Shown piece by piece: positions 4,686 through 20,864 of a stretch of 64,000 bases of DNA. The position numbers and the translations under genes were made by a program. Under the pieces are notes generated by a model. It saw nothing but the letters and a program-made list of their open reading frames with translations, ran no database searches and was not told where the DNA came from. The stretch is from Selenomonas dianae (GTDB taxonomy: Bacteria > Bacillota > Negativicutes > Selenomonadales > Selenomonadaceae), in contig NZ_CP128650.1 of the NCBI RefSeq assembly GCF_030644225.1, positions 2,315,001-2,379,000 on the forward strand, read 5' to 3'. Each line of letters begins with the position of its first letter. The first letter of the stretch is position 1.

Positions 4686-5699
4686 ATGAACGACAATACA
4701 ACAGCAGTCAGCTCCCGCCGCAAGATCATCCTGAGCGGCATTCAGCCCACCGGCACATTCACCCTCGGCAACTATCTCGGGGCGGTGAAGAACTGGCGGC
4801 ACCTGCAGGAGGAGTATGACTGCTATTATTTTGTCGCCGATCTGCACGCGCTGACGGTCTACCACGATCCCGCCGAGCGCCGCAGGGCGAGCCGTGCGGC
4901 GTTTGCACTGCTGCTCGCGTGCGGGCTCGCCCCCGACCAAAGTCTCGTCTTTATCCAGAGCCATGTCCCCGCGCACGCGCAGATGGGATGGATGCTCTCG
5001 TGTCTCAGCCCGTTCGGCGATCTCTCGCGCATGACGCAGTTCAAGGACAAGTCCGCGAAGCATCCCGAGGACATCAACGCGGGGCTATTCACATATCCGG
5101 CGCTGATGGCGGGTGACATCCTGCTCTATCAGGCGGACTATGTGCCCGTCGGCGCGGATCAGACGCAGCACCTTGAGTTCACGCGCAATGTCGCGGCACG
5201 GTTCAACCATGTGTACGGCGAGACGTTCCGTCTGCCCGAGGGGTACTACCCGAAGGCGGGCGCACGCGTCATGAGCCTCCAAGACCCCACGGCAAAGATG
5301 AGCAAGTCGGACGAGAATGCAAAGGCGACGATCTACATCCTCGACGATGAGAAGACGATCCTCAAAAAGTTCAAGTCCGCCGTGACGGACAGCGCGGCAG
5401 AGGTCGCGTTCCGCGAGGGCAAAGACGGCATCAACAACCTAATGACAATCTACGCCGCCGTCACGGGCAAAACGATGGAGGAAATCACGGCGGAGTTCGC
5501 AGGAAAAGGCTACGGCGACTTCAAGACCGCCGTCGGCACGGTGGTCGCGGACGAGCTGCGCCCGGTGCGTGAGAACTACGCGCGCCTGATGGAAGACAAG
5601 GCGTATCTCGATGCGGAGATTGCAAAGGGCGCGGAGCGTGCCGCGCACATCGCGGAGAAGACGCTGCGGAAAACGATGCGGAAGATGGGTCTGTGCTGA
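4686..5699 (+). CDS. trpS: Tryptophan--tRNA ligase
   Basis: A 337-residue class I aminoacyl-tRNA synthetase that charges tRNA-Trp. The HIGH-equivalent PTGTFTLGNYLGA lies near residues 20-33 and the KMSKS loop (AKMSKSDEN) near residue 205. GDLSRMTQFKDKS and GADQTQHLEFTR are the conserved Trp/ATP-site segments. Length matches bacterial TrpS. A longer frame opens upstream at 4569 inside the family B repeat, but ATG 4686 has AAGGAAGG at the right distance and gives the usual N-terminus. Its TGA overlaps the ATG of the cytidylyltransferase gene (TGATG), so the two are translationally coupled. Confidence 0.95.
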   Translation: MNDNTTAVSSRRKIILSGIQPTGTFTLGNYLGAVKNWRHLQEEYDCYYFVADLHALTVYHDPAERRRASRAAFALLLACGLAPDQSLVFIQSHVPAHAQMGWMLSCLSPFGDLSRMTQFKDKSAKHPEDINAGLFTYPALMAGDILLYQADYVPVGADQTQHLEFTRNVAARFNHVYGETFRLPEGYYPKAGARVMSLQDPTAKMSKSDENAKATIYILDDEKTILKKFKSAVTDSAAEVAFREGKDGINNLMTIYAAVTGKTMEEITAEFAGKGYGDFKTAVGTVVADELRPVRENYARLMEDKAYLDAEIAKGAERAAHIAEKTLRKTMRKMGLC

Positions 5700-6463
5700 T
5701 GAACGCGCGAGGAGGAACTGCACCGCGCACGGCAGGAAGTGACGGCGCACATCGCGTGACCCGCGCCGTTATTCTCGCGGCGGGACGCGGCTCGCGGCTC
5801 GCACCGCTGACGGATACGCTGCCGAAGCCGCTCGTCCCCGTCAGCGGCGTGCCAATCATCGCGACCATTCTCGATGCGCTTCATGCAGCGGGGATTTCGT
5901 CGATAACACTGGTACGTGGCTATCGCGGCGAGGCGTTCAACGCGCTCCGCGAAACGTACCCACAGATCGCATTTCTCGACAATCCCGACTGGGAAACGAG
6001 CAACAACATCTCGTCCATCACCCTCGCGGGGCGTGCGGGACTTCTGGAGGACAGCTATGTGATCGAGGGCGATCTCTACCTCGCCAATCCCGCCATCATC
6101 ACACCCACGCAGACGCGCACGAACTACATCGCGTTTCCTGTCGAATCGACGGACGACTGGTGTTTTGACACGGATGCGAGCGGGAAAATCACGCACATTG
6201 ATACGGCGAGCGACCATCCGTGCCATCAGATGCTCGGGCTGTCCTACTGGACGGCGGCGGACGGAGCGCGGCTGGCAGACTGTGCGAATGCGCTCTACGC
6301 CGAGGAGCAGTATCGTCAGCTCTACTGGGACGAGATTGCGTTGAAATACTATCTGCCAGAGTTCTCCATCCACATACGGGAGTGTACGCGGGAGGACGTG
6401 TGGGAGATTGATACGGTGGAGGAGCTGCGGGCATTGGAGGAGCAGATGAAGTATATGGGTTGA
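5699..6463 (+). CDS. LicC/PntC-like nucleotidyltransferase, probable AEP cytidylyltransferase
   Basis: A 254-residue protein with the sugar/choline nucleotidyltransferase signature LAAGRGSRLAPLT (residues 26-38) and the following LPKPLVPV with Lys43. EGDLYLANP provides the metal-binding Asp region. This fold transfers CMP or a similar NMP to a phosphate. With PEP mutase, AEP transaminase and phosphonopyruvate decarboxylase in the same island, the likely substrate is 2-aminoethylphosphonate, giving CMP-AEP as in the PntC family; phosphocholine (LicC) is the main alternative. ATG 5699 is taken because it overlaps the trpS stop; GTG 5693 is possible. It is separated from the rest of the island by 366 bases of repeats. 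Confidence 0.8.
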   Translation: MNARGGTAPRTAGSDGAHRVTRAVILAAGRGSRLAPLTDTLPKPLVPVSGVPIIATILDALHAAGISSITLVRGYRGEAFNALRETYPQIAFLDNPDWETSNNISSITLAGRAGLLEDSYVIEGDLYLANPAIITPTQTRTNYIAFPVESTDDWCFDTDASGKITHIDTASDHPCHQMLGLSYWTAADGARLADCANALYAEEQYRQLYWDEIALKYYLPEFSIHIRECTREDVWEIDTVEELRALEEQMKYMG

Positions 6464-6471
6464 ATGTTATG

Positions 6472-6568
6472 GGGCTTCGTCAAACGTTACGGACGTGCGA
6501 GCTCCTCGCAGAGCCCTCGTTACGCACCGTAAAACGAAAGGGCTTCGTCAAATGTTACGGACGTGCGA
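6472..6568 (+). repeat. Pair of 29-bp direct repeats
   Basis: A 29-bp unit starting GGGCTTCGTCAAA and ending GGACGTGCGA occurs at 6472-6500 and 6540-6568 with one mismatch. Between the units lies a fragment of a family B end (GCTCCTCGCAGAGCCCTCGT). It looks like debris of repeat insertion; no gene is seen from 6464 to 6640. Confidence 0.7.
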
Positions 6569-6640
6569 TGCCCGACGCAAATGGGGAGGATAACGGTGAA
6601 GCGTCAGGAGGGTCTCTGCCGGGAAGGCGGTGCGTTCCCC

Positions 6641-6790
6641 TGTAGCAAACCTAGTGAAGCAAGCGGAGAAAAGGGTACGTTCTGCCCCCTGCGGATTTCT
6701 ACCGTTCAAGCGAAGCGCGTTTGAAATCCGCAGGTATTTCGGCAGATAAGTGCCCGACCGCTTGCGTAACGAGGTTCTGCGAAGGGGATG
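6641..6790. repeat. Family B fold-back repeat, copy B2
   Basis: A complete family B copy with somewhat diverged ends (TAGCAAACCTAGTGAAGCAAG at the left, TTGCGTAACGAGGTTCTGCG at the right). It lies between the cytidylyltransferase and PEP mutase genes, so any operon transcript would carry its hairpin. Confidence 0.8.
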
Positions 6791-6829
6791 CACCGCAGGA
6801 ATCAACGAAATGGACGAGAGGGAAAATCT

Positions 6830-8125
6830 ATGAAACGTGTATACACCTGCTTCTGCACCGACATCATCCACGCAGGGCATCGCAACCTCCTGCGTGCGGC
6901 GGCGGAGCTGGGCGAGGTGACGGTCGGCGTGCTCTCCGATGCGGAGATGGTGCGCTACAACCGCTTTCCGACCAAGACGCTCGCGGAGCGCATAGAGATG
7001 ATTCGCGCCCTGCCCGATGTCGCGGAGGTTGTCGTGCAGGAGCACATCATGTACGACGAGATCCTTGACCGTCTGCGCCCCGACTACGTCGTGCACGGGA
7101 GCAACTGGGCGCAGGGGCCCGAGTCCTCCATCCGCAAGAACGTCCTCGCCTGCCTCGCACGCTATGGCGGCGAGCTGATCGAGCCGCCGTACACAGAGAA
7201 CGCCGAGGTGCGCAACATCGACTGGCGGATGCGCGAACAGCTCGCCATGCCCGAGGCGCGGCGCGGACGGCTGCGCCGCCTCCTCTCCATCGTCCCCATC
7301 GTTAAGACCATCGAAGTACACAACGGGCTGACGGGGCTGATTGCCGAAAAGACGGTTGTGGAGAACGACGGCGGCCTCGACCAGTTCGACGCGATGTGGG
7401 TCTCAAGCCTCTGTGATTCGACCTCACGCGGCAAGCCCGACATCGAGCTGGTCGATCTCTCCGACCGCATCCAGACCATCAACGAGGTCATGGAGGTGAC
7501 AACGAAGCCCATCATCCTCGACATGGACACGGGCGGCACAGCGGAGCATTTCGCCTACAACGTCCGCACACTGGAGCGCATCGGCGTGTCCGCCGTCATC
7601 ATCGAGGACAAGACGGGCGCAAAGCGCAACTCCCTCTTCGGCACGGAGGTCGCGCAGACGCAGGATAGCATCGAGAACTTCTCCGAGAAGATCGCTGCGG
7701 GCAAGGCGGCACAGCGGACAGAGGAGTTCATGATCATCGCACGCATCGAGAGCCTGATTCTGGAAAAAGGATTGGCGGACGCACGCGAACGCGCGGAGGC
7801 CTACGTTGCGGCGGGCGCGGACGGCATCATGATCCACTCGCGTGCGAAGTCCCCCGACGAGGTCATTGCGTTCTGCGATGCGTTCCACACACAGCATCCG
7901 AACGTCCCCATCGTCGCCGTTCCCTCCTCCTACAACACAATCACGGAGGCACAGCTCGCAGCGCACGGCGTACGCATCGTCATCTACGCGAACCAACTCA
8001 CGCGGGCGGCATTCCCCGCCATGGAGGGCGCGGCACGCTCCATCCTCACACACCACCGCGCACACGAGATCGACAGCACGCTGCTGCCGATCAAGGACAT
8101 CATCCGACTGATTGATGTCATGTAA
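6830..8125 (+). CDS. pepM: Phosphoenolpyruvate mutase with N-terminal cytidylyltransferase-like domain
   Basis: This enzyme converts phosphoenolpyruvate to phosphonopyruvate, the C-P bond-forming entry step of phosphonate biosynthesis. The 431-residue protein has two parts. The N-terminal cytidylyltransferase-like domain (about 1-135) has IIHAGH at 12-17 and HGSNWAQ near 89-95. The isocitrate-lyase-fold mutase domain (about 150-431) contains the diagnostic EDK-x5-NS motif, with EDK at 259-261 and NS at 267-268, and DMDTGG at 241-246. I chose ATG 6830 (GAGAGGG upstream); a GTG/ATG 14 codons earlier lies in repeat sequence. The transaminase gene follows after 46 bases. Whether the N-terminal domain is active is unknown. 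Confidence 0.95.
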   Translation: MKRVYTCFCTDIIHAGHRNLLRAAAELGEVTVGVLSDAEMVRYNRFPTKTLAERIEMIRALPDVAEVVVQEHIMYDEILDRLRPDYVVHGSNWAQGPESSIRKNVLACLARYGGELIEPPYTENAEVRNIDWRMREQLAMPEARRGRLRRLLSIVPIVKTIEVHNGLTGLIAEKTVVENDGGLDQFDAMWVSSLCDSTSRGKPDIELVDLSDRIQTINEVMEVTTKPIILDMDTGGTAEHFAYNVRTLERIGVSAVIIEDKTGAKRNSLFGTEVAQTQDSIENFSEKIAAGKAAQRTEEFMIIARIESLILEKGLADARERAEAYVAAGADGIMIHSRAKSPDEVIAFCDAFHTQHPNVPIVAVPSSYNTITEAQLAAHGVRIVIYANQLTRAAFPAMEGAARSILTHHRAHEIDSTLLPIKDIIRLIDVM

Positions 8126-8171
8126 TTGGGGGGCTTTGTTTCTATTGTATGTTATGTATCGGAGATGAACC

Positions 8172-9263
8172 ATGAACATCAAACGCAACATTCTCCTCAA
8201 TCCCGGTCCTGCGACCACCACGGACACCGTCAAGGCGGCGCAGCTCGTCCCCGACATCTGCCCGCGCGAGCGGGAGTTCGGGCAGCTGATGCGCGATCTC
8301 GGCAGCAATCTGTTAAAGGTCGTCCACGCGAATGAAGCGGAGTGGACGACCGTCCTTTTCTGCGGCTCGGGCACGATCTGCATGGACGCGTGCGTCAGCT
8401 CGCTCATCCCTGCGGACGGAAAACTCCTCATCGTCAACAACGGGGCGTATTCCGCGCGGGCGGCAGAGATGGCGCGCGCCTACGCCGTTCCGCATATCGA
8501 CCTACAGTTTCCGATTGACGGGCTGCCCGACCTCGAACTGGTGGAGCGCACGCTCATCGAGCACCCCGACATCACCGCCGTCTACACAACGCATCAGGAG
8601 ACGGGTACAGGCATCCTGAACCCCGTGCGGGAGATCGGCGCATGCGCCCACGCACACGGGGCACTCATGATCGCAGACACGATCTCGACCTACGCGATGA
8701 TTCCGTTCACCGTGAACGAAATGAACATCGACGTGTGTATGTCCTCGGCGCAGAAGGGCATCCAAGGTATGACGGGACTTTCATACGTCCTTGCCAAAAA
8801 ATCCGTGCTGACTGCCGCAAAGTCCTATCCCGTGCGCTCGTACTACACGAATCTCGTCATGCAGTATGAGGGATTCGAGCAGACGGGCGAGATGCGCTTT
8901 ACCCCGCCCGTGCAGACCGTCTATGCAGCAAAGCGTGCGCTCGCCGAATACTTCGCCGAGGGCGCGGCGAAAAAATGGGCACGCCATACGCGCACAATCA
9001 ACGCCATCCACGAGGGTCTTGCGGCGCTCGGGCTAACGGAAGCGATTCCCCGCGAAATCCAGTCGGGGCTCGTCGTTGCGGTGGAATACCCTGCGAACTT
9101 TGACTTTATGCGCGTCCATGACTACTGCTACGAGCGCGGCTATACGATCTACCCCGGCAAGATGCAGACCGCATCGACATTCCGCCTCTGTGCGCTTGGT
9201 GCGATTGACGAAGCGGACATCCGAGGCTTCTTCCGCGTGTTTGAGGAAGCGCTGAAGGCTTAG
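8172..9263 (+). CDS. 2-aminoethylphosphonate--pyruvate transaminase
   Basis: A 363-residue class V PLP-dependent aminotransferase. In the AEP pathway it interconverts phosphonoacetaldehyde and AEP; beside pepM and a decarboxylase the biosynthetic direction is expected. The start LLNPGPATTTDTV is the family hallmark. CGSGT (64-68) is the cofactor-phosphate region, Asp169 in IADT and Lys195 in SSAQKGIQG are the PLP-binding residues. ATG 8172 has GGAG 7 bases upstream. Closest relatives also include serine-glyoxylate type enzymes, but context settles the call. Confidence 0.93.
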   Translation: MNIKRNILLNPGPATTTDTVKAAQLVPDICPREREFGQLMRDLGSNLLKVVHANEAEWTTVLFCGSGTICMDACVSSLIPADGKLLIVNNGAYSARAAEMARAYAVPHIDLQFPIDGLPDLELVERTLIEHPDITAVYTTHQETGTGILNPVREIGACAHAHGALMIADTISTYAMIPFTVNEMNIDVCMSSAQKGIQGMTGLSYVLAKKSVLTAAKSYPVRSYYTNLVMQYEGFEQTGEMRFTPPVQTVYAAKRALAEYFAEGAAKKWARHTRTINAIHEGLAALGLTEAIPREIQSGLVVAVEYPANFDFMRVHDYCYERGYTIYPGKMQTASTFRLCALGAIDEADIRGFFRVFEEALKA

Positions 9264-9284
9264 GGGGATCCCCCCGTACGGTAC

Positions 9285-9340
9285 GGGGGAGGAATCGCTT
9301 GCGTAACGAGGGGTCTGCGAGGCGTATCGCCTCGCAAAAA
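9285..9340. repeat. Remnant of a family B end
   Basis: GCTTGCGTAACGAGGGGTCTGCGAGGCG matches, in parts, the right end of family B; the rest of the element is missing. It lies between the transaminase and the first paralogue. Confidence 0.6.
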
Positions 9341-9352
9341 CGAAAGGACATC

Positions 9353-11476
9353 ATGACGGACGATTTCACCGTATTTTGGCAGAACAATGCGCGGGCGCAG
9401 GAGCTTTTTGACGACCTCCTCGCACGCGCGGAGCGAAATGCCTATGACGACGACTTCCTCGCCGCACTCGCCGCCTATCGGGAGGCGGAGTGTCTTTTGA
9501 GGGGGGGCACAGATGCGCCAAACGCGGACATCTTCGCGGCGGAGTATCTGCTCGCGCAGGGGGAGGCGGAGGACGCCGCGCTCTGCGGGGAACGCGCCTT
9601 TCGCAGCCGCCCCGTCGAGCCGCGTGTCTGGCGCGTGCTCGCACGTGCCTATGCTGCGCTCGGACGCTATGCGGATGCCCTCATCATGCAGGGCTATCCG
9701 CTGAACTTCTTCAAAGTCCCGATCTCCCTTGATATGCCTGCCTCTGTGCTGACCCCCGCGACCCTCGACCGGCTCTCGCGTGCAACGGGCAAGGCGGCCT
9801 ATGCGCCCTATGCACTCAGCCGCATGACCTACACCGCCGAGACGGGGCTGACTGCCCGTTCGACGGTGTTCTTCGAGGAGTTTCTGCCCGTCTCGGAGCA
9901 TATCGCACCGCATTACTACGTCGGCGCATACACGGATCAGGAGATACATGGCAACAAACGATGGCTGATGAACGCGATCCGAAACGTGCCGGGGCTTGCC
10001 GAGAATGTCGGTGGAGACTTCACGTTCGACATCATGCGCGGCACACGCGCATCGGGAGAGGTGTGCATTGACATCGCAGAGGGTGCGCAGGCAATTATTC
10101 CGATCTACGGCACGGCGGACGGACAGTCTCTCACGGCACAGTCGGAGACGGTATGCGACGACATCCGTCTGAATCCTGCAACGCCGAATTTTTTCCGTCT
10201 GGATGAGACGACACACTTCCGCTCCGACGCAGACGTCATTATCGGTACGCCAATTCACCTCGGACACAGCCCCGCACGCCGAAAACTCGTCCTCAACATT
10301 CTTGTGGATGCCCTTCCGTGGACGCTGCTGCGCACGGACTTCGCGTCGCACATGCCCGCTACAGCGCATTTCTTTGCACGTGGCACGATCTTTGATCGGC
10401 ACTTTTCGGTATGCGAGTACACCTATCCCTCGCTCCCGACCATCGAGACGGGGATGTACCCGCACCATACGGGCATCTTCAACGAATGGGCGGCGATTGA
10501 ACTGGATCCGACCTTCGTCACCATTGCCGAGCGGGCGCGTGCATCGGGCTATGCCACAGCGAATCTCATGAGCGAGGGCATCGGCATATGGAACGGTACG
10601 TCGCGCGGCTATGACCGTCTGCTGGTCACCCCCTACCGCACGCTCGCCTATGAGGGCGTGGAGCGCACGATCCGCTATCTCGACGGCTGCGGCGCGGCGG
10701 ATCACTTCATCTTTCTGCATTTCAACGACGTGCACCCTTGGAGCAGCGAGCTGTTCCAGATCTCTACCGCCGCGCAAATGGAGCTGTCGCTCGCGGGTCG
10801 GCTCGCGGGTGAAAAGAAAAAAATACCCAGCCCCTACTTGCGCCCGAGTGCATTTTACCAAACCGCATTTTGGCAGGCGGTACACGATACGGATCGCGCA
10901 CTCGGCGCACTGTTCTCCTATATCGAGCAGCACTATGCAGAGGGAGAATATCTCGTGAATCTGTACTCCGATCACGGCGTACCGATCTTCAGTGCGGAAC
11001 ACTATATCGTGGATACCCATATGACAGGTGCGGCATGGATGATGCGTGGGGCGGGCGTACCGGCGGGGATCGTCGCGGACGAACTGACGAGTGCAGTCGA
11101 TATTTACCCGACGCTTGCCCACCTCTGCGGCTTTCCCGTGGGGGAGAATGTGGACGGCGTGCTCCCGCGTCTTTTTGGTGGCACGGGACGCGACATCGCC
11201 TACAGCAACTCGCTCTATCCGCTCAAACCCTACTTCCTCGCGGCGCGATCGCGTACCCATACGTTCTGTTTGGAAACCGAGAATGTTGCCGCCATCAACG
11301 GAACAGTCGATCTCGCGCGTGCTACGGCCGCTATCTATCCGAACGCACACGAACGCGAGGAGGGCAGTGCGGTAGACAGCCCCGCACTGCGGGCGTTCTT
11401 CTATCCGCGTGTCCGCGCATTTTTGCAGGGGATTGGGAGCAATGGCGAGCAGTTCCCCCCACCGAAGGAGATATAG
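9353..11476 (+). CDS. TPR-like/alkaline phosphatase-superfamily protein, paralogue 1 of 4
   Basis: A 707-residue protein with no signal peptide or membrane segment, so probably cytosolic. Residues 1-120 are helical repeats (AAYREAECLL, AAEYLLAQGEAEDAALCGERAF, VLARAYAALGRYADAL). After a middle region the alkaline phosphatase/phosphodiesterase domain starts near 305. Asp319 (LVDALPW), Thr357 (EYTYPSLPTIETG), Asp459/His461 (FNDVHPW), Asp540-His541 (YSDHG) and His556 fit the two-metal site and threonine nucleophile of that superfamily. The Cys/Ser-x-Pro-x-Arg motif of true sulfatases is absent. In a phosphonate island it may transfer or hydrolyse a phosphonate or phosphate ester; this is inference. 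The next paralogue starts 1 base after the stop. Confidence 0.85.
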   Translation: MTDDFTVFWQNNARAQELFDDLLARAERNAYDDDFLAALAAYREAECLLRGGTDAPNADIFAAEYLLAQGEAEDAALCGERAFRSRPVEPRVWRVLARAYAALGRYADALIMQGYPLNFFKVPISLDMPASVLTPATLDRLSRATGKAAYAPYALSRMTYTAETGLTARSTVFFEEFLPVSEHIAPHYYVGAYTDQEIHGNKRWLMNAIRNVPGLAENVGGDFTFDIMRGTRASGEVCIDIAEGAQAIIPIYGTADGQSLTAQSETVCDDIRLNPATPNFFRLDETTHFRSDADVIIGTPIHLGHSPARRKLVLNILVDALPWTLLRTDFASHMPATAHFFARGTIFDRHFSVCEYTYPSLPTIETGMYPHHTGIFNEWAAIELDPTFVTIAERARASGYATANLMSEGIGIWNGTSRGYDRLLVTPYRTLAYEGVERTIRYLDGCGAADHFIFLHFNDVHPWSSELFQISTAAQMELSLAGRLAGEKKKIPSPYLRPSAFYQTAFWQAVHDTDRALGALFSYIEQHYAEGEYLVNLYSDHGVPIFSAEHYIVDTHMTGAAWMMRGAGVPAGIVADELTSAVDIYPTLAHLCGFPVGENVDGVLPRLFGGTGRDIAYSNSLYPLKPYFLAARSRTHTFCLETENVAAINGTVDLARATAAIYPNAHEREEGSAVDSPALRAFFYPRVRAFLQGIGSNGEQFPPPKEI

Positions 11477-11477
11477 C

Positions 11478-13583
11478 ATGACGGACGATTTCAGCGTATT
11501 TTGGCGAAACAACGAACGCGCCCGCATACTTTTTTACGCACTTCTCACCCATGCGGCGAGCGTAGGCTATGACGACGACTTCCTCGCCGCACTTGCCGCC
11601 TATCGGGAGGCGGGCGGCACGGCGGCGCACGCGGACATCTTCGCGGCGGAGTATCTGCTCGCGCAAGGGGAGGCGGAGAATGCCGCGCTCTGCGGGGAGC
11701 GAGCCTTTCGCAGCCGCCCCGTCGAGCCGCGCCTCTTAGACGTGCTCGCACGTGCCTATGCCGCGCTCGGACGCTATGCGGATGCCCTCGTCATGCAGGG
11801 ACGTGCGGCAAAGCTCACGGGACGCCCGCTCACGACGGACTGTCCGCCCGCGCTGCTGACAGGAGAGGTGCTCGACCGCCTGTCCGTTGCGATGGGCAAG
11901 CCGAGCTATGCGCCGATGGCACTGTCCCGCATGAGCTACGATGCCGCAGCGGGCTTCACGGCACGCGAGGGAGTATTTGCTGGCGAATTCCTCCCGCAGG
12001 AGACGGACATCCACCCCCCCTACTATGTGGCGACGTATACGGAGCAGGAGCAGCAGGGCAACAAGGCATGGCTGCTCCATACCATCGAGGATGCCAAGGG
12101 CTTTGCCGAGAACGTCGGCGGCGAGTTCGTCTACGATCTCATCCGTGCCCGACGTGCGCCGGGACGCGCCGAGATCACGCTCGCGGCGGGACAGGAGATC
12201 GTGCTCCCCGTGCTCGGGGTACAGGGATTTCAGCGGCTCCACGTAAAGACGGACAGCCTCGAAAAGGATACGCCGCTCAGCCCCGCCACGCCGAATTTCT
12301 TCCGTCTCACGGAGCGCACGACGCTCTCCTCCGATCACGCCTTCCTCGTCGGTACGCCGATCTCCGTCGGCCACAGCCCGCAGCGCCGCCCACTCGTGCT
12401 GAATCTCCTCGCCGACGCGCTCCCGTGGGAAATCCTCGGCGCGCATTTCGCGGAGTGGATGCCGAACACGGCGCGGTTCTTTGCACGCGGCGTGATCTTC
12501 GATCAGCATTTCTCCGTGTCCGAGTACACCTATCCCTCGCTCCCGACCATCGAGACGGGGATGTACCCGCACCACAGCCACATCTTCAACGACAAGATCG
12601 CCATCTCCCTGCCGCCGGAGTATGTAACGCTCTCCGAGCGGATGCGGACGCTCGGCTATGCGACGGCGAGCCTCATGGGGGACGGCATCGGTGTCTACAA
12701 CGGCACGACGCGCGGCTACGACCGCCTCATCGTCTCAGGTTACCGCACGCTCGCCTACGAGGGCGTGGAGCGCACGATCCGCCATCTCGACGGGATGCGC
12801 GATGTGGATCACTTCATCTTTCTGCATACGGCGGACGTCCATCCGTGGCCGTACCCGCTCTTTCAAGTCACGGCAAGCGTACAGGCACGCCTGCCGCTCG
12901 CGGAGCGTCTCTCGGGTGCGGAGGACGGTGTGCCGAGCCCCTATCTGCGGACGACACCGCTCGCCGACGCAACGTGTCGGCAGGGCATCCGCGATCTCGA
13001 CCGTGCGCTCGGGACGCTCTTTTCCTATCTCGAAGAAAACTATGCGGAGGGGGAGTATCTCGTCAATCTCTACTCCGATCACGGCGTACCCGTATTCAGC
13101 AAAGATCACTACATTGTCAGCCCGGATATGACGCACGCCGTATGGATGATGCGCGGGGCGGGCGTGCCTGCGGGGATCGTCGCGGACGAACTGACGAGTG
13201 CGGTCGATATGTACCCGACGCTCGCACACCTGTGCGGCTTTCCCGTGGGGGACAGCGTGGACGGCGTGCGTCCGCGTCTTTTTGGCGGCACGGGACGCGA
13301 CATCGCCTACAGCAACTCGCTCTATCCGGGACGCACCTACTGTCTGCGGGCACGCACGCGGACGCATACCTTCCATCTGGAGACCGAGGACGGTGTCGCA
13401 CCGAACGGGACGGTCGATCTCGCGCGTGCCGTGACCGCCATCTATCCGCGCACACATGAGGGCATCGCAGGATATGAGGTGGACAGCCCCGCGCTGCGTG
13501 CGTTCTTCTATCCGCGTGTCCGCGCATTTTTGCAGGGGATCGGGAGCAACGGCGAGCAGTTCCCCCCACCGAAGGAGATATAG
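11478..13583 (+). CDS. TPR-like/alkaline phosphatase-superfamily protein, paralogue 2 of 4
   Basis: A 701-residue paralogue with the same plan: an MTDDFSVFW start, helical repeats to about residue 110, and the catalytic domain with LLADALPW, EYTYPSLPTIETGMYPHH, LHTADVHPW and YSDHG all conserved. It differs from paralogue 1 mainly in the middle (about 110-290) and in surface loops after the nucleophile. The C-terminal 15 residues (GIGSNGEQFPPPKEI) equal those of paralogues 1 and 3, and the same bases (GAAGGAGATATAG) form the ribosome site for the next gene, so the junction is under double constraint. One base separates it from paralogue 3. Confidence 0.85.
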   Translation: MTDDFSVFWRNNERARILFYALLTHAASVGYDDDFLAALAAYREAGGTAAHADIFAAEYLLAQGEAENAALCGERAFRSRPVEPRLLDVLARAYAALGRYADALVMQGRAAKLTGRPLTTDCPPALLTGEVLDRLSVAMGKPSYAPMALSRMSYDAAAGFTAREGVFAGEFLPQETDIHPPYYVATYTEQEQQGNKAWLLHTIEDAKGFAENVGGEFVYDLIRARRAPGRAEITLAAGQEIVLPVLGVQGFQRLHVKTDSLEKDTPLSPATPNFFRLTERTTLSSDHAFLVGTPISVGHSPQRRPLVLNLLADALPWEILGAHFAEWMPNTARFFARGVIFDQHFSVSEYTYPSLPTIETGMYPHHSHIFNDKIAISLPPEYVTLSERMRTLGYATASLMGDGIGVYNGTTRGYDRLIVSGYRTLAYEGVERTIRHLDGMRDVDHFIFLHTADVHPWPYPLFQVTASVQARLPLAERLSGAEDGVPSPYLRTTPLADATCRQGIRDLDRALGTLFSYLEENYAEGEYLVNLYSDHGVPVFSKDHYIVSPDMTHAVWMMRGAGVPAGIVADELTSAVDMYPTLAHLCGFPVGDSVDGVRPRLFGGTGRDIAYSNSLYPGRTYCLRARTRTHTFHLETEDGVAPNGTVDLARAVTAIYPRTHEGIAGYEVDSPALRAFFYPRVRAFLQGIGSNGEQFPPPKEI

Positions 13584-13584
13584 C

Positions 13585-15726
13585 ATGACGGACGATTTCA
13601 GCGTGTTTTGGCAAAACAACGAACGCGCCCGCACGCTCTTTTACGAACTTTTGGAACGGTCAGAGCGTGCCGCCTATGACGACGACTTCCTCGCACGCCT
13701 TGCGGCATATCGGGAGGCGGAGTGTCTTTTGAGGGGGGGCATGGATGCACCAAATGCGGACATATTCGCCGCACGCTATCTCCTCCATCACGGAGACGCA
13801 GAGGCGGCGATCGTCTGCGGCAGGCGTTCCTTGCTCCGACACGCCGTGAACCATGCCGCATGGGATGTGCTCATCCGTTCCTATGAGGCGCTCGGCCGTT
13901 ATGGGGAAGCGCTCGTGATGCAGGGATATGCGGCGAGCCTCCATCCGATGCCGTTCTCCATCGAGGGCTATCCGGCGGAGGCAATGACGGGCGATGTGCT
14001 CGATCGCCTGTCCGTCGTTATGTCCCGCCCCGCATCTGCCCCGACGGCGGTGCGGATGTCCTATGATCCGGAAAAGGGCATCACCGCCGCAGGCGGGGTC
14101 TTTGTCGGCGAACATCTCCCCGCAGATACACATACCCCTCCCTACTATGTCGGCGTATACGCAGAACAGGGGATGCAGGGGGACAGGGCATGGATGATGA
14201 GCGTCCTCCAAAATGCGCCGGGGGTCTTGCCCTTTGGTGCGGGAGATTTCGTATTTGACATCATGCGCGGTACGCGTGCCCCCGGTACGGCGCACATCGA
14301 TCTCGCACCGGGGCAGAAGGTAGTCCTCCCCGTCATCGGGACGGTGGTGCCCGTTCCCGGTGTGCACACGCCGCAGCACCTCCGCATCACCACGCCTTCC
14401 TTCCACGCATTCGGATGGCTCAACGGTGCGACGCCGAATTTCTTCCGTCTCAACGAGACGACGGATTTCGCGTCCAAGGAATCCTTTATCGTCGGCACCC
14501 CCATCCACATCGGTCACAGCCCGCAGCGGCGGCGTCTTGTCCTGAACATTCTCGCCGACGCGCTGCCGTGGCAGGTGCTGCGCAATTCGTTTGCCGCCGC
14601 GATGCCGCAGACGGCACGCTTTTTCGCACGCGGGACGATCTTCGACCGGCATTTTTCTGTGGCGGAGTACACCTATCCGTCGTTTGCCACGATCGAAACG
14701 GGGATGTATCCCCAGCACAGTCAGATCTTTCACAGCAACGTCCACGTCTCCCTCCGCACGGAGTATGTGACGCTCGCGGAGCGGATGCGGGAGCTCGGCT
14801 ATGCGACGGCAAATCTCATGGGGCTTGGCGACGGCATATACAACGGTGTCACGCGCGGCTATGACCGTCTGCTGATCGCGTCCTACCGCCAGCAGAACTA
14901 CGAAGCGGTCGCGCGGGTCATCCGCCATCTTGAGGGGCTTGGCGATGCCGATCATTTCATCCTCATCCACTCAGGCGATGTGCATCCGTTCCCCTCTCCG
15001 CTGTTCCAGTATGGCACGGCGGCACAGGCGCATCTGCCGCTGCGGCCGCGCCTGACGGAGCTCGTCAATGCGCCGCCCAGTCCCTATCTGATCGGGAGTC
15101 CCTTGAACCAGGAGGCATTCCGTCTCGGCGTACGTGAGCTCGACCGCACGCTCGGGATGCTCTTTGCCTATCTGGAGGAGAACTACGCCCCCGAGGACTA
15201 CCTCGTGAATCTCTACTCCGATCACGGGGTCTCTATTTTCAGCGAACATCCTCACATCGTCGATCCGCTCCTCACGGGTGCAACGTGGATGATGCGTGGC
15301 GCAGGGGTGCCCGAAGGGGTGGTCACGGACGAGCTGACAAGCCCCGTTGACATCTATCCTGCGCTCGCCCACCTCTGCGGCTTTCCCGTGGGAGAGAATG
15401 TGGACGGTGTTCTGCCGCAGGTCTTTGGGGGGACGGGACGCGACATCACGTTCAGCAACTCGCTGTACCCCGGCAAGCCTTACTTCCTCACGGCACGCAC
15501 GCAGACGCATAGTTTCTGTCTGGAGACCGAGGACGGTGTCGCACCGAACGGGACGGTCGATCTCGCGCGTGCCGTGACCGCCATCTATCCGCGCGCACAT
15601 GAGCGGGAGGCGGGCTGCGAGGTGGACAGCCCCGCGCTGCGGGCGTTCTTCTATCCGCGCGTCCGCGCATTTTTGCAGGGGATCGGGAGCAACGGTGAGC
15701 AGTTCCCCCCACCGAAGGAGATATAG
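13585..15726 (+). CDS. TPR-like/alkaline phosphatase-superfamily protein, paralogue 3 of 4
   Basis: A 713-residue paralogue. The N-terminal repeats (AAYREAECLLRGGMDAPNADIFAARYLLHHG split across helices) match paralogue 4 more closely than paralogue 2, while the C-terminus matches paralogue 2: a mosaic consistent with gene conversion. Catalytic segments are ILADALPW, EYTYPSFATIETGMYPQH, IHSGDVHPF and YSDHG; the nucleophile Thr and metal ligands are retained although LPT becomes FAT. A short insertion (VVPVPGVHTPQHLRITT) lies before the catalytic domain. It probably does the same chemistry on a different acceptor, though nothing in the sequence identifies the substrate. Confidence 0.85.
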   Translation: MTDDFSVFWQNNERARTLFYELLERSERAAYDDDFLARLAAYREAECLLRGGMDAPNADIFAARYLLHHGDAEAAIVCGRRSLLRHAVNHAAWDVLIRSYEALGRYGEALVMQGYAASLHPMPFSIEGYPAEAMTGDVLDRLSVVMSRPASAPTAVRMSYDPEKGITAAGGVFVGEHLPADTHTPPYYVGVYAEQGMQGDRAWMMSVLQNAPGVLPFGAGDFVFDIMRGTRAPGTAHIDLAPGQKVVLPVIGTVVPVPGVHTPQHLRITTPSFHAFGWLNGATPNFFRLNETTDFASKESFIVGTPIHIGHSPQRRRLVLNILADALPWQVLRNSFAAAMPQTARFFARGTIFDRHFSVAEYTYPSFATIETGMYPQHSQIFHSNVHVSLRTEYVTLAERMRELGYATANLMGLGDGIYNGVTRGYDRLLIASYRQQNYEAVARVIRHLEGLGDADHFILIHSGDVHPFPSPLFQYGTAAQAHLPLRPRLTELVNAPPSPYLIGSPLNQEAFRLGVRELDRTLGMLFAYLEENYAPEDYLVNLYSDHGVSIFSEHPHIVDPLLTGATWMMRGAGVPEGVVTDELTSPVDIYPALAHLCGFPVGENVDGVLPQVFGGTGRDITFSNSLYPGKPYFLTARTQTHSFCLETEDGVAPNGTVDLARAVTAIYPRAHEREAGCEVDSPALRAFFYPRVRAFLQGIGSNGEQFPPPKEI

Positions 15727-15727
15727 C

Positions 15728-17935
15728 ATGACGGACGATCTCAGCGTGTTTTGGCAAAATGATACACGTCTCCATGATCTCTTTTCCGCGCTGTGCGCAC
15801 GCTGTGAAAGAGACGCATACGACGACGACTTCCTCGCACGCCTTGCGGCATATCGGGAGGCGGAGTGTCTTTTGAGGGGGGGCACGGATGCACCAAATGC
15901 GGACATCTTCGCCGCACGCTATCTCCTCCATCACGGAGATGCACAGGCGGCGCTCATCTGCGCCGAGCGCGCCTATGCACTGCGTCCCGTGAACTATGAG
16001 GTGTGGAAGCTCCTCGCCGCGATCTACGTGCGGCTCGGGCGTACGGCGGACGCACTCACGATGTACGGGAACGCCTACAGCATTTACTTCGCGCCCGAAA
16101 TTCCTGCGGAGCTCATACGGCAGGGCGGCACGGAAGGCCGCGCCCGTCTCACGGTTGCACTGGGCTGCGGCAATTTCGCCCCTCTCGCAAAGGCTCGCGT
16201 CTCCATGAACGGCGACGACCCTGCTTTTCAGACCGACATCTTTCTGGGCGAGCCGCTGCCGCTCACCCCGCCGCCGCAGGCACAACGCTTCTGGGTGGCG
16301 TGCTATACGGACAACTCCTTTCTCTCCGACCACACGTTTTTGGCAGAGGAACTTCGGCACACGGATGTATTTTATCGGTGCGGGCATCGTGATTTCTGGT
16401 TTCAGCTCCAACAGGCGGTGGAGGTGCGCGGTACGGTGGAGGTCAACGTCCCGGAGGGGAGCGAGGTCGTCCTCCCCGTCGCCGGTACGGAGCACCTGCA
16501 GGAGCTGACCGTGGAAACGCAGCATATGCCTGCACGAACGGCATATCTCGGAACGTGCGCATTCAGCCATTTCCGCCTGTCCGAGACGACGCGTCTCACG
16601 GCTGCGACGGATGCGCCGTATGCGGTCGGCACGCCGATCCGCCTCGGGCACAGCCCTGCGCGAAAAAAACTCGTGCTGAACATCCTCGTGGACGGGCTGT
16701 CGTGGAACATCGCGCAATCCTACTTTCCGGAGATGATGCCGAACATCGCGCGGTTCTTTGCACACGGCGTGATCTTCGATCAACATTTCTCTGTCTCCGA
16801 GTACACCCATCCCTCGCTGCCCACCATCGAGACGGGGCGTTATCCGCATCATACGATGGTCTTCAACGATAATGACAGTCACGAACTGCCGCTCGCGTTC
16901 AAGACCCTCTCGGAATGTATGGCGGATCTCGGCTACTATACCACCGCGCCGTCGGCGTCGAGTGACAACGTCTACTGCGGAGCGATGCGCGGGTATCGGC
17001 AGCTCAACATCTCCTCATGGAAACAGCCCGCGCTCGATGCGGCGGATCGTGCGATCATGCAGCTGGAAGCCTTTGACGAGGCGGATCAGTTTCTCTTTTT
17101 GCACATCAGCGACGTACATCCGTGGAATGCGGCGGGGTTCAAGTTCCACCCGTCACTGGAAGCCCATCTGCCCCTCGCACAGCGGCTTTTCGAGGCGGAT
17201 GCGCACGTGCCGAGCGTCCGTCTGCCGAAGCTGTTCGTCTATCAGGAGCAGTTTCGGCAGGGTCTGCGCAAAGCAGATCGGAACATCGCCCCCCTCCTCC
17301 GCTATATCGAGGAGCACTACGCCGAGGAGGAGTACATCGTAAACCTCTACGCCGACCACGGGAACTCCGTATTCGCCGCACCAACCGCAGGTGTCGCGGA
17401 CAGCCTCGGCACAGATGCCCCACACACAGAGCCGGTGGATATAATTTCCGCAAATGCGACCCGCGCCGTCTGGATGGTGCGGGGGGCGGGCGTGCCGCAC
17501 GGCATTGTCGCGAAGGAACTCACGAGCAGTGCGGACATCTACCCGACCCTCGGCGCACTCTGCGGCTTCCCCGTCGCAGAGGACATCGACGGGAACCTCC
17601 CCGCCGTCTTTGGCGGTACGGCACGGGATGCCGCCGTCAGTATGTCCATGTTTCCGGGGCAGACATTCAAGCTCGCCATACGCACGCAGCAACACGCGCT
17701 GCGCCTTGAGACGCGGGGTGTCGTCGATGAGGACGGGACGGTGGATTTTGCGGGAGCAAAGACCGCCATCTACCCGCGCGCCCACGAATGCGAGGAGGGC
17801 TGCGAAATCGACAGCCCCACTCTGCGTGCGTTCTTCTACCCGCGCGCACGCGAAATCGCACGGGAGATTGCAAACAACGGCGACCGATGGCCGGCGATGC
17901 GCGCGGCACGTCCGCAGTGGTTCGGGGAGGAGTAG
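15728..17935 (+). CDS. TPR-like/alkaline phosphatase-superfamily protein, paralogue 4 of 4 (most diverged)
   Basis: A 735-residue paralogue and the most diverged of the four. The N-terminal 80 residues stay close to paralogue 3 but the middle (about 100-300) is largely different. Catalytic elements remain: ILVDGLSW, EYTHPSLPTIETGRYPHH, LHISDVHPW and YADHG. An insertion of about 25 residues follows YADHG (around GVADSLGTDAPHTEPVD). The C-terminus departs from the others (PRAREIAREIANNGDRWP, then WFGEE) and lacks the PPPKEI tail, which fits its place as the last of the array with no downstream partner needing the embedded ribosome site. Confidence 0.85.
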   Translation: MTDDLSVFWQNDTRLHDLFSALCARCERDAYDDDFLARLAAYREAECLLRGGTDAPNADIFAARYLLHHGDAQAALICAERAYALRPVNYEVWKLLAAIYVRLGRTADALTMYGNAYSIYFAPEIPAELIRQGGTEGRARLTVALGCGNFAPLAKARVSMNGDDPAFQTDIFLGEPLPLTPPPQAQRFWVACYTDNSFLSDHTFLAEELRHTDVFYRCGHRDFWFQLQQAVEVRGTVEVNVPEGSEVVLPVAGTEHLQELTVETQHMPARTAYLGTCAFSHFRLSETTRLTAATDAPYAVGTPIRLGHSPARKKLVLNILVDGLSWNIAQSYFPEMMPNIARFFAHGVIFDQHFSVSEYTHPSLPTIETGRYPHHTMVFNDNDSHELPLAFKTLSECMADLGYYTTAPSASSDNVYCGAMRGYRQLNISSWKQPALDAADRAIMQLEAFDEADQFLFLHISDVHPWNAAGFKFHPSLEAHLPLAQRLFEADAHVPSVRLPKLFVYQEQFRQGLRKADRNIAPLLRYIEEHYAEEEYIVNLYADHGNSVFAAPTAGVADSLGTDAPHTEPVDIISANATRAVWMVRGAGVPHGIVAKELTSSADIYPTLGALCGFPVAEDIDGNLPAVFGGTARDAAVSMSMFPGQTFKLAIRTQQHALRLETRGVVDEDGTVDFAGAKTAIYPRAHECEEGCEIDSPTLRAFFYPRAREIAREIANNGDRWPAMRAARPQWFGEE

Positions 17936-17953
17936 GGTTCTGCGCGGAGTTCT

Positions 17954-18054
17954 GTGTTCACGCGGGGGATGCGGCGCAAGGATCGTGCTATGGGTGGTAT
18001 GTTTGGCATGGGTGGTACGTTCCGTGTTCACGCGAGGGATGCGGCGCAAGGATC
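17954..18054 (+). repeat. 31-bp direct repeat between paralogue 4 and the decarboxylase gene
   Basis: A 31-bp unit beginning GTGTTCACGCG and ending GGCGCAAGGATC occurs at 17954-17984 and 18024-18054 with one mismatch. It fills most of the 184-base gap; no other signal is seen there. Confidence 0.75.
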
Positions 18055-18119
18055 CACAACATATCGTGACATGGGACAAAGGAACCGAACTGCGATGGAA
18101 AGGTAAAAAGGGAGAGCGT

Positions 18120-19235
18120 ATGAACGTCAATGATTTTCTCTCTGCGCTCGGCGCAGAGTTCTTTACGGGTGTCCCCGATTCGAAGCTGCGTCCGCTCGTC
18201 GATCATCTCATGGACACCTACGGCGCGCACAGTCCTGCGCACGTCATTGCCGTGAATGAGGGCAGTGCGGCGGCGCTCGCGGCGGGCTATCACCTCGCGA
18301 CGGGCAAGACGCCGCTCGTCTACCTCCAGAACAGCGGGCTCGGCAACCTCGTGAATCCGCTGCTCTCGCTGCTGCACGAGGAGGTCTACGGCATCCCGTG
18401 CATCTTCGTCGTCGGCTGGCGCGGCGAACCGGATCGGCACGACGAGCCGCAACACCTCGTGCAGGGACGTTTATCCGTGCCACTTCTTGCGACAATGGGT
18501 GTGCAGACATTCGTCCTAACGAGGGAGACGGCGGCGGCAGAGGTCGCGGCTTGGAGGGAGGAGATGCGCCCCCGGCTTGCGGCGGGCGGACAGTGCGCCA
18601 TCCTCGTGCGGGACGGTGCGCTCACGTATCCGAAGCGCACGTATGGAAATGCGTATGCGCTGCGCCGTGAAGAGGCGATCGCACACATCCTCGATGCGGC
18701 GGGCGACGCTGCCATCGTCGCCACCACGGGCAAGACGGGACGCGAACTCTTTGAACTGCGCGAGGCACGCGGCGCGGATCACGCGCACGACTTCCTCACC
18801 GTCGGCTCGATGGGACACGCCTCCGCCCTCGCGCTCGGCATCGCCCTCCATCAGCCGCAGCGGCGCGTCGTCGTACTTGACGGTGACGGTGCGGCGCTGA
18901 TGCACATGGGCGCACTCGCGACCATCGGCGCAGCGGCTCCAAAAAATCTCGTACACATCCTCCTCAACAACGAGGCGCACGAGAGTGTCGGCGGCGCACC
19001 GACGGCGGCGGGCAGCGTCAGCTTCCCCGCCATCGCCGCCAATGTCGGCTACCATGTCCTCCCCACCGCGCAGACGGCGCAGGAACTCACGAATTCCCTC
19101 GCGCAACTCTCCGGCACCCGTACGCTCACCTTCCTTGAGGTAAAGACCGCCATCGGATCACGCGCAGATCTCGGACGGCCGACCACCACGCCGCACGCGA
19201 ACAAGGAGGCTCTGATGCGGACGCTGCGCGGATAA
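18120..19235 (+). CDS. Phosphonopyruvate decarboxylase
   Basis: A 371-residue ThDP-dependent enzyme that converts phosphonopyruvate to phosphonoacetaldehyde, pulling the unfavourable PEP mutase reaction forward. Glu47 in VNEGSA is the expected ThDP-activating glutamate. VVGWRGEPDRHDEPQH and QGRLSVPLLATMG are characteristic of Ppd rather than of acetolactate synthases. The ThDP/Mg motif runs from GDGAALMHMGAL to ILLNNEAHES. The long frame upstream overlaps paralogue 4; ATG 18120, with GGGAGAG just before it, gives the normal N-terminus. With pepM and the transaminase it completes the route to AEP. Confidence 0.93.
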   Translation: MNVNDFLSALGAEFFTGVPDSKLRPLVDHLMDTYGAHSPAHVIAVNEGSAAALAAGYHLATGKTPLVYLQNSGLGNLVNPLLSLLHEEVYGIPCIFVVGWRGEPDRHDEPQHLVQGRLSVPLLATMGVQTFVLTRETAAAEVAAWREEMRPRLAAGGQCAILVRDGALTYPKRTYGNAYALRREEAIAHILDAAGDAAIVATTGKTGRELFELREARGADHAHDFLTVGSMGHASALALGIALHQPQRRVVVLDGDGAALMHMGALATIGAAAPKNLVHILLNNEAHESVGGAPTAAGSVSFPAIAANVGYHVLPTAQTAQELTNSLAQLSGTRTLTFLEVKTAIGSRADLGRPTTTPHANKEALMRTLRG

Positions 19236-19255
19236 CGCAACCACTGACACGTACA

Positions 19256-19297
19256 CGAAAAGCCGCATTCGCTCTTATGAACGAATGCGGCTTTTCG
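19256..19297 (+). terminator. Intrinsic terminator of the phosphonate island
   Basis: The stem AAAAGCCGCATTCG/CGAATGCGGCTTTT begins 20 bases after the decarboxylase stop, with T-rich flanks on both strands. Confidence 0.85.
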
Positions 19298-19299
19298 TA

Positions 19300-19421
19300 T
19301 GTAACCGCCCATTCCCACAAATGAGCAGTTGAGATAAAAATTGACCAATCATCATGGAAAGATGCCGTCATAGGACGTTTCTTTCTGTTTTTATTATAGC
19401 AATTCACGTGGCGTTTGACAA
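19300..19421 (-). ncRNA. Duplicate antitoxin-like RNA unit without a toxin gene
   Basis: On the - strand TTGTCA (19416-19421) and TATAAT (19393-19398) have a 17-base spacer. The next bases are nearly identical to the antitoxin unit at 19637-19759, ending in a decayed copy of the same hairpin (GTAACCGCCC...GAGCAGTTG, 19301-19331). No toxin frame lies to its left. It is best read as a tandem duplicate of the antitoxin half of the neighbouring locus. Confidence 0.5.
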
Positions 19422-19473
19422 GTCATAATACATAGAAGCGGATGCGGCTTTTTTTGTATTTCGGAAAATGCGT

Positions 19474-19502
19474 TTGCACTTTGATCTGCTTGCGTTTATA
19501 AT
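19474..19502 (+). promoter_or_regulatory. Promoter of the 23-residue toxin gene
   Basis: TTGCAC (19474-19479) and a perfect TATAAT (19497-19502) are 17 bases apart. The leader of about 65 bases contains GCGGGAGCAATCTCGC and CCCCCGAAAGGGGGG hairpins; the second overlaps the ribosome site and could hold it closed. Confidence 0.7.
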
Positions 19503-19572
19503 AGAATTGAAACGTCCTTAGGCGGGAGCAATCTCGCGGCGGTGTCTTTCCCCCGAAAGGGGGGTGAGTGAG

Positions 19573-19724: not shown

Positions 19725-19730
19725 GTTTTT

Positions 19731-19766: not shown

Positions 19767-20864
19767 TCAAGATTTCTCCCGCACAAGCCCCATCGCCAGC
19801 TCTGCGTTGTGTGCGGCGAGAGTGCGCATCCGTGCGAGGAGGTCGGCATTCGCCGCCGTGAATGTACTGCGTGCCGCCCACTTGCGGCGCACCTCCTTGA
19901 GGACGCTCGCGGTGGTGATGTCCTGCAGATCATTGACGGGTTTCTCGCCGATGGAGCGGAGGAAGCGATCGACCTTCGGGTCATACGAGATGCCGATCAT
20001 GGGCACGCCCATGACCCCCGCGAAGATGAGCGCGTGCAGGCGCACGCCGATCATGAGATCCATGTTCGCGACGAGGGAAAGAAGCTCGCTCGTACTGTAC
20101 TCCGCATCGAGGATGGTGCAGTCCTCCTTCGTCCACGCGGCGACGGTCTTTGCCGTGCGCACGTCCTCGGGGTACTGCATGGGGAGAAAGACGACGCGCG
20201 CGCCGAGCTCGCGCACGATGGCGTCGCTGATCTCGGCGAGGATTTCCTTGTAGTGCTGCCACCCCTGCCAATCGCGCACGGAGATGCCGACGACGGGCTT
20301 TGCCCCGTCCGCGCCATAACGGCTGAGAATGGTGCGCCCCGCCTCCCGTCCGACGGGATGAATGCCGAGCACGGGATCTGCCGTACACTCCATCGGCGGG
20401 CGTGTGATGCCGAGACGGCGCAGCTCCGCCATCGAGCCCTCGTCCCGCACGGTGATGAGGGAGACGCGGTTGCCGAGCCAGCGCATACAGCGGCAGGCAA
20501 AACGCCCCGTGACAGGTCCGATGCCCTGCGCATAGAGCATGACCTTTTTGCCGAGCATGAGCGCAAGCAGGATGATACCCATGTAGTAGTAGAGGCTGCG
20601 GCGGCTCGTGACGTTCTGAAGGAGACTGCCGCCCCCGCTGATCAGGAGATCCGCCCGGCGCACCGCGCCGAGGATTCCGCCCACATCAAACGAGCCGACT
20701 GCGTGTACGCCATGACGGCGCTCGGTATCCGCAGGATCGGCGGTAATGACGGTGATATGAAGTTCCGGGTCCAAATCCGCGAGTACCTCCAGCATCGCCG
20801 CGAGCATCGCCTCATCGCCCGCATTCTTCGCGCCGTAGTACCCCGATACAACGATCCGCTTCAT
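19767..20864 (-). CDS. csaB: Polysaccharide pyruvyl transferase CsaB
   Basis: A 365-residue CsaB-type enzyme that adds a ketal-linked pyruvate, from PEP, to cell-wall polysaccharide; in relatives this anchors SLH-domain surface proteins. Family features are the start VSGYYGAKNAGDEAML (residues 5-20), the glycine-rich LLISGGGSLLQN, YAQGIGP, and the C-terminal GVRLHALIFAGVMGVPMIGISYDPKVD region. The length is typical. It is normally cotranscribed with the DUF5693 gene; here a family A and a family B repeat separate the two (20921-21250). It competes for the same precursor, PEP, as the phosphonate island. Confidence 0.92.
   Translation of the reverse strand: MKRIVVSGYYGAKNAGDEAMLAAMLEVLADLDPELHITVITADPADTERRHGVHAVGSFDVGGILGAVRRADLLISGGGSLLQNVTSRRSLYYYMGIILLALMLGKKVMLYAQGIGPVTGRFACRCMRWLGNRVSLITVRDEGSMAELRRLGITRPPMECTADPVLGIHPVGREAGRTILSRYGADGAKPVVGISVRDWQGWQHYKEILAEISDAIVRELGARVVFLPMQYPEDVRTAKTVAAWTKEDCTILDAEYSTSELLSLVANMDLMIGVRLHALIFAGVMGVPMIGISYDPKVDRFLRSIGEKPVNDLQDITTASVLKEVRRKWAARSTFTAANADLLARMRTLAAHNAELAMGLVREKS

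Follow-up and report, generated by a model that had tools for sequence, protein, structure and literature searches.

What do four closely related proteins do in the middle of a gene island that makes 2-aminoethylphosphonate (AEP)? The question is raised by a 64,000-nucleotide stretch of the Selenomonas dianae genome (contig NZ_CP128650.1, positions 2,315,001 to 2,379,000; hereafter the window), in which four back-to-back genes for alkaline phosphatase superfamily proteins (ALP1 to ALP4) lie among genes for AEP synthesis. From their gene content, fold, conserved residues and co-localisation we infer a reaction, a donor and an acceptor: the ALPs are, in our judgment fairly probably, cytosolic head-group transferases that depend on donors activated with cytidine mono- or diphosphate (CMP/CDP) and act on protein-linked glycans. 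A link to flagellin glycosylation, absent from the preliminary description of this locus, was found here. The island and its downstream boundary are composed as follows, with coordinates counted within the window:

5693..6463, + strand: LicC/PntC-like cytidylyltransferase (NTP_transf_3; PF12804, 43 bits, cut-off 27)
6788..8125, + strand: fusion of a cytidylyltransferase-like domain (CTP_transf_like) with PEP_mutase (PepM; TIGR02320, 391 bits, cut-off 319.6)
8172..9263, + strand: 2-aminoethylphosphonate aminotransferase (TIGR03301, 420.8, cut-off 360.8)
9353..11476, + strand: ALP1, 707 residues, with a TPR region, a beta domain and an alkaline-phosphatase-superfamily catalytic domain with a Thr nucleophile
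11478..13583, + strand: ALP2, 701 residues (AlphaFold model; D313, T351, H455, D534, H535)
13585..15726, + strand: ALP3, 713 residues, same family by alignment
15728..17935, + strand: ALP4, 735 residues, the most divergent of the four, with unchanged catalytic residues
18120..19235, + strand: phosphonopyruvate decarboxylase (TIGR03297, 427.9, cut-off 312.5)
19767..20864, - strand: downstream boundary of the island, a gene read as csaB-like (context only)

The biosynthetic genes agree with the preliminary description, which had placed the same enzymes and four tandem paralogues of 701-735 residues here and had predicted AEP and probably CMP-AEP. PepM, the transaminase and the decarboxylase all exceed their NCBIfam equivalog cut-offs, and the PepM fusion carries the motif EDKTGAKRNS (EDK-x5-NS); as these are families of established function, it follows that the three enzymes make AEP. 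CMP-AEP is the predicted product of PntC and/or of the cytidylyltransferase domain fused to PepM, with AEP specificity presumed from the family match. The open reading frame at 5693..6463 runs into the 3' end of trpS, so its real start may be slightly further downstream. The island is flanked by trpS on one side and the convergent csaB-like gene on the other, and the latter also bounds the island downstream in several members of the genus. All 14 genus loci tested, some of them representing one genome twice (L061, L062, L064-L066, L069-L071, L046-L050, L040; loci are numbered L and genomes G), have one or two copies of a methyltransferase gene between pepM and the AEP transaminase gene. No such gene lies between these two genes in the window (8125-8172), and the AEP of this strain may therefore be unmethylated.

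The four ALPs are 46-66% identical in the five of six pairs measured, and all pass the Pfam Sulfatase cut-off (PF00884, 59-75 bits, cut-off 25). They matched no NCBIfam family above its cut-off in the NCBIfam scan and not LicD (PF04991) in the Pfam scan, and an ALP2 query of the 2.39-Mb genome found just four places, the island genes themselves. In the ALP2 model (predicted local distance difference test score 93), helices (13-114) precede a beta domain (147-292) and the catalytic domain (306-690). N-terminal helical repeats, as first described, are borne out by these helices and by alignment of the family profile with TPR proteins over residues 35-114; single-protein TPR matches fell below the model cut-offs, being weak in three ALPs and absent from ALP3. 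No signal or membrane segment was predicted in any of the four, whose top 19-residue hydropathy (1.00-1.34) sets them apart from proteins with an EptA/LtaS-type membrane domain. A 20-nucleotide stretch resembling a ribosome site is identical upstream of ALP2, ALP3 and ALP4, the 3' ends of ALP1-3 are alike (86-90% nucleotide identity in the last full 50-codon block) and divergence is greatest at residues about 100-300; these features of 9353-17935 would fit local exchange between the genes while the middle domain diverges. In the G001 island, one ALP copy is in three fragments (L046, 10952-12355) beside three intact copies, showing that the array gains and loses members.

Across 48 aligned sequences, T351 (ALP2 numbering) is invariant and coincides with the Cys of sulfatases and phosphonate monoester hydrolases (PMHs). 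D313, T351, D534 and H535, the one-metal positions when aligned with the PMH structure 4upk, are each present in 48 of 48, which at sequence level supports the presence of a single-metal ligand set (Asp, nucleophile, Asp-His); D453, a candidate second-metal ligand, is Asp in 42 of 48. The core fold and the metal and nucleophile positions are those of the alkaline phosphatase superfamily, and comparison of the AlphaFold model assigns the catalytic fold to the sulfatase/PMH type. The earlier view of soluble Thr-nucleophile enzymes of this superfamily is thus sustained, whereas the two-metal site it included is not supported, the fold and the conserved ligands being sulfatase/PMH-like and of the one-metal kind. 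Membership of the formylglycine sulfatases/PMHs by the C/S-x-P-S-R signature was ruled out, as the lack of a sulfatase Cys/Ser motif had already suggested: Thr occupies the position in all 48, no CxPSR is present and the Arg is lost.

EptA/MCR and LtaS, like EptC (acting on FlgG) and PptA (on pilin), are membrane head-group transferases that work outside the cytosol with lipid donors. The ALPs share with EptA/MCR/LtaS the superfamily, the Thr nucleophile and, as proposed here, the transfer of small phospho head groups; by likeness to EptA and LtaS, the ALP threonine may be a transfer-type nucleophile. The ALPs differ in having no membrane segment and in lying beside CMP/CDP activation genes.

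To place the family, we surveyed 60 genomes (the strain's own and 59 relatives). ALPs occurred in 19, namely all 14 genomes of the genus, own included, and five belonging to different genera within that bacterial family, so the observation is not due to chance; genus genomes hold 2-8 matches each, fragments counted. PepM exceeded its cut-off in 17 genomes, in 15 together with ALPs and in two alone (G032, G033). Scanning a single genome for each GTDB species yielded 49 ALP loci in 33 assemblies (grouped by record). Judged by title, almost all of these are Selenomonadaceae-type (Selenomonas, Centipeda, Mitsuokella, Anaerovibrio, Schwartzia and rumen metagenome-assembled genomes, MAGs); the exceptions were a single Oscillospiraceae MAG contig and a weak match in Poribacteria. 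Each window ALP clusters with copies of other species (approximate likelihood ratio test, aLRT, 100 for ALP2, 99.6 for ALP3 and 32.6 for ALP4), and for 54 of 56 oral tips the nearest tip belongs to another genome: old paralogue lineages have been kept across species. The ALPs are a real, old and diversified enzyme family. These lineages are compatible with the earlier suggestion of one paralogue per acceptor but do not prove it.

What stands beside the ALPs in relatives bears on the donor. Cassettes were labelled by best blastp match to reference genes, with Pfam/NCBIfam scans on representatives only. Phosphonate genes occur in 19 of the 49 loci, 17 of these with PepM. LicC/LicA-labelled genes occur in six loci (L073, L074, L079, L083, L101, L105) and NTP_CobD-labelled genes in four. 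In L072 and L103 the NTP_CobD match is only a short gene of nucleotidyltransferase size (scanned in the case of L072), with PepM also there, while L092 and L093 carry a fusion-sized gene and no phosphonate gene. The latter, a nucleotidyltransferase-CobD-like aminotransferase fusion (173 bits against a cut-off of 290 in L042, a copy of the L093 locus), lies beside a methyltransferase of the same family as the one between pepM and the transaminase gene in the genus (40-47% identical). L076 combines PepM, an iron alcohol dehydrogenase and the decarboxylase without a transaminase, which suggests hydroxyethylphosphonate as the product, although the dehydrogenase reaches just 95 bits against the model of the phosphonate family (cut-off 424); L100 is similar, on a 6.7-kb contig. 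L072 also encodes an iron alcohol dehydrogenase and a decarboxylase, and a radical SAM gene just ahead of its PepM (13091-14350) may encode an enzyme that modifies the phosphonate further. In L081 (12110-14054), genes for a glucose-1-phosphate cytidylyltransferase and a CDP-glucose 4,6-dehydratase, both above cut-off, lie directly 3' of the ALP.

Activation genes were found at an ALP locus in 25 of 33 assemblies, and in all 17 non-oral loci measured the ALP was one or two genes from one of them. No such gene was seen at an ALP locus in the remaining eight: Centipeda, RGIG3630, RUG102, two Mitsuokella, the Oscillospiraceae contig, RUG043 and the Poribacteria match. For three of these eight the contig is shorter than 11 kb. 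With tip labels that we assigned by cassette, the ALP tree requires nine cassette changes over all 72 tips, against a mean of 13.6 and a minimum of 11 in shuffles. It also requires nine over the 25 non-oral tips, where shuffling gives a mean of 12.5 and a minimum of 9. This is a history of some inheritance and much switching. The phosphocholine-type ALP of L105 is nested among AEP-type ALPs (aLRT 99.9). This nesting and the switching indicate that the family tracks the kind of activation (CMP/CDP) rather than a single head group.

The genomic surroundings in other genera also point to an acceptor. We searched for flagellin in the 14 genomes behind the 15 non-genus loci and fetched nine stretches; continuity of six was established by exact sequence overlap, and the L076 flagellin gene lies inside the locus itself. 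FliC is encoded within about 18 kb of the ALP in seven of the 15 loci (L072, L075, L076, L077, L088, L092, L105). L075, L076 and L077 share the order FliC, GT2/TPR glycosyltransferases, GT41, TPR protein (c6) and, directly after the latter, ALP and PepM, with one or two extra genes among the glycosyltransferases; the other four have the same kinds of glycosyltransferase genes, with other glycan or unlabelled genes between. GT41 genes occur in 12 of the 49 loci. In genome G031, a GT41 O-glycosyltransferase and an ALP catalytic domain are fused in one protein of 1205 residues (L036, 14136-17753, - strand); in L080 the GT41 gene and the ALP are adjacent, by a csaB-like gene, and in L090 the ALP adjoins motA-motB. 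The 5.9-kb Oscillospiraceae MAG contig (L107) reads flagellin, GT2, divergent ALP, an example from outside the Selenomonadaceae unless the contig is misbinned. The strain's own genome has a FliC-GT2-GT2-GT41-TPR block (L113).

This arrangement resembles a known pathway. In C. difficile, CD0242 is proposed to make CDP-threonine and CD0244 to pass phosphothreonine to N-acetylglucosamine (GlcNAc) on FliC (PMC10714395), and in P. aeruginosa PA1091 combines a glycosyltransferase and a CD0244-type part in one gene (PMC11833859). Like CD0240-CD0244 and PA1088-PA1091, ALP loci of relatives bring together glycosyltransferases by fliC, a nucleotidyl-activated phospho head group, a methyltransferase and a candidate last-step transferase; one cassette in relatives resembles that of type A itself, and L036, like PA1091, fuses a glycosyltransferase to the (candidate) transferase. 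The differences are that the last-step candidate here is a TPR and sulfatase-fold protein instead of the glycerophosphotransferase-like CD0244, that no PF04464 match occurs in the strain's genome, that the ALPs belong to another superfamily, and that the window island is away from fliC and has no methyltransferase. On C. difficile flagellin, the type A GlcNAc has been reported to carry AEP; a survey for pepM in that species gave a negative result, and the source of its AEP was left open (PMC8861647). In the Pnt pathway, Ppm, Ppd and AEPT make AEP, PntC activates it to CMP-AEP and LicD-like genes occur in some clusters; the route that leads on from AEP to surface molecules modified with phosphonate was called unknown (PMC6697681, section 4). 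The island shares this synthesis and activation, but an ALP is proposed for the later step and LicD is unmatched in the genome. Our best reading is that the type A and Pnt logic is carried out here with a different enzyme superfamily.

The proposed sequence of events would run as follows. Once AEP and CMP-AEP have been made, the ALP threonine (T351 in ALP2) would attack the phosphonyl group of CMP-AEP while D313, T351, D534 and H535 hold one metal. CMP would depart, and AEP would be handed to a sugar hydroxyl, the sugar having been O-linked to a protein beforehand by GT41/GT2 glycosyltransferases. The N-terminal TPR domain would choose the protein substrate, as in Caulobacter FlmG, which also has an N-terminal TPR and a catalytic domain, the latter a glycosyltransferase in FlmG; the FlmG TPR domain binds flagellin in the cytosol and FlmG acts on it there (PMC7591256). 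In relatives, the most likely acceptor would be cytosolic flagellin before export, and in the window's genus flagellin is likely, with other glycoproteins possible. In the weakest step of the scheme, separate paralogues might serve separate acceptors or sites. An ALP would thereby do, from another superfamily, the job proposed for CD0244 in the type A pathway. No enzyme had hitherto been known to attach AEP and similar groups to protein-bound sugars, for instance those of flagellin; if the ALPs are the missing transferases, the step from CMP-AEP to modified surface molecules could be tested in named species. This would connect the phosphonates of bacteria with protein glycosylation and motility, beyond capsules and lipids, and one enzyme type would be able to put AEP on flagellin glycans, the modification reported in C. 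difficile (PMC8861647).

We weighed this reading against the other candidate transferases. LicD (PF04991), the CDP-glycerol-type family PF04464 and c11 had no match in the window's genome (G000), which makes the ALPs the best candidates there for the use of CMP-AEP. Comparing the 14 PepM and ALP genomes among the 38 surveyed for both LicD and PF04464, we found five with no LicD, PF04464 or c11 match (G000 and four other members of the genus, G002, G005, G010, G012). The earlier statement that known head-group enzymes are absent or differ in topology is supported as regards LicD and PF04464. A fifth Sulfatase-family protein, of 617 residues with an N-terminal membrane domain (L129, 70675-71514 region) and EptA-like by reading of its sequence, is encoded in the genome. 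The c11 family comprises proteins of about 800 residues, of which the L077 member (18728-21151) has no Pfam or NCBIfam match; several homologues coincide in part with PF04464 matches or lie in the same open frame as such a match (e.g. G014, G011, G015), so c11 is probably a CD0244-like relative of the CDP-glycerol-type transferases. In L074 (6319-7224) and L076 (16464-17362), LicD appears as two adjacent frames, perhaps a broken or split gene.

Several observations weigh against our proposal. LicD or PF04464 matches, mostly weak PF04464, occur in the nine other PepM and ALP genomes; LicD, a known transferase type, is present in eight of the 49 ALP loci (six Pfam-checked, two by clustering) and c11 in five, and in such loci the ALP cannot be taken by default for the sole transferase. 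The window island lies about 290 kb from fliC, proximity to flagellin was not established for eight of the 15 non-genus loci, and the oral loci, being orthologous, represent few independent events. Some ALPs have no activation gene in view (e.g. L067, L085, L095-L098, L104), and four of the 19 ALP genomes have no PepM (G011, G015, G026, G029). Finally, no phosphonate gene is in view at 30 of the 49 loci, and AEP as the sole group, the preliminary description's assumption, is not supported in that form. That description had also held that a majority of homologues without a pepM neighbour would speak against it; by locus count such a majority exists, yet 60 of the 90 copies longer than 600 residues sit in phosphonate loci and 15 of the 19 ALP genomes have PepM.

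Hydrolysis is the first alternative. The closest solved folds are hydrolases (PDB 4uph, 4upk, 2w8s, 6fny), a further point against transfer, and the ALPs could be PMH-type enzymes for the trimming or recycling of head groups or the hydrolysis of CMP-AEP, with transfer left to another enzyme. We consider this unlikely: in contrast to the formylglycine PMHs and choline sulfatase represented by these structures, the ALPs have Thr in place of the defining Cys/formylglycine, have lost the CxPSR Arg and carry TPR and beta domains in front, and both the lack of LicD, PF04464 and c11 matches in the genome and the glycosyltransferase fusion speak against hydrolysis. Head-group swapping, the flagellin islands, the GT41-ALP fusion, the five genomes with no LicD, PF04464 or c11 match, Thr for formylglycine in a sulfatase/PMH fold, the missing membrane segment and the AEP reported on type A GlcNAc are all counted for the transferase reading.

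It is similarly improbable, in our estimate, that the ALPs move AEP in the cytosol onto non-protein acceptors such as a cell-wall polymer, lipopolysaccharide core or capsule, with the flagellar islands a side branch. The position of the window island between trpS and the csaB-like gene, away from flagellin, would suit such acceptors, as would the widely varying paralogue number and the presence of capsular polysaccharide among known AEP carriers (PMC6697681); flagellin near the ALP in seven non-genus loci and on the distant MAG contig, GT41 in 12 loci and the TPR domain point instead to protein. That the ALPs are common sulfatases or phosphatases with some unrelated role, present by accident, would agree with their purely Pfam-level Sulfatase annotation but is very unlikely, given recurrent co-localisation with differing cytidylyl-activation cassettes in many assemblies, the missing sulfatase nucleophile and the maintained paralogue lineages.

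Beyond AEP transfer itself, we tentatively put forward a wider possibility: that the ALPs form a new class of soluble, TPR-guided, sulfatase-fold transferases, with Thr in place of formylglycine and with CMP/CDP donors, which, supplied by interchangeable donor cassettes, decorate the O-glycans of flagellin and of further glycoproteins in the cytosol. With up to about eight paralogues, an array would write different phosphonate patterns on different acceptors. The donor groups would include AEP, hydroxyethylphosphonate, phosphocholine, amino-alcohol or threonine phosphate and possibly CDP-sugar-derived groups.

Oral Selenomonas also encode more distant and mostly longer ALPs (about 680-870 residues), around which no activation gene is in view (L095-L098, L104, L034, L037); in L034, three of them lie between genes that, from their sequences, resemble those for formate-tetrahydrofolate ligase and valyl-tRNA synthetase. 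Centipeda periodontii (G011; L067, L078) has no PepM in its genome, and a single ALP is still found beside trpS; a second ALP adjoins a nucleotide-sugar dehydratase-like gene, and LicD and a c11 homologue are encoded elsewhere in the same genome.

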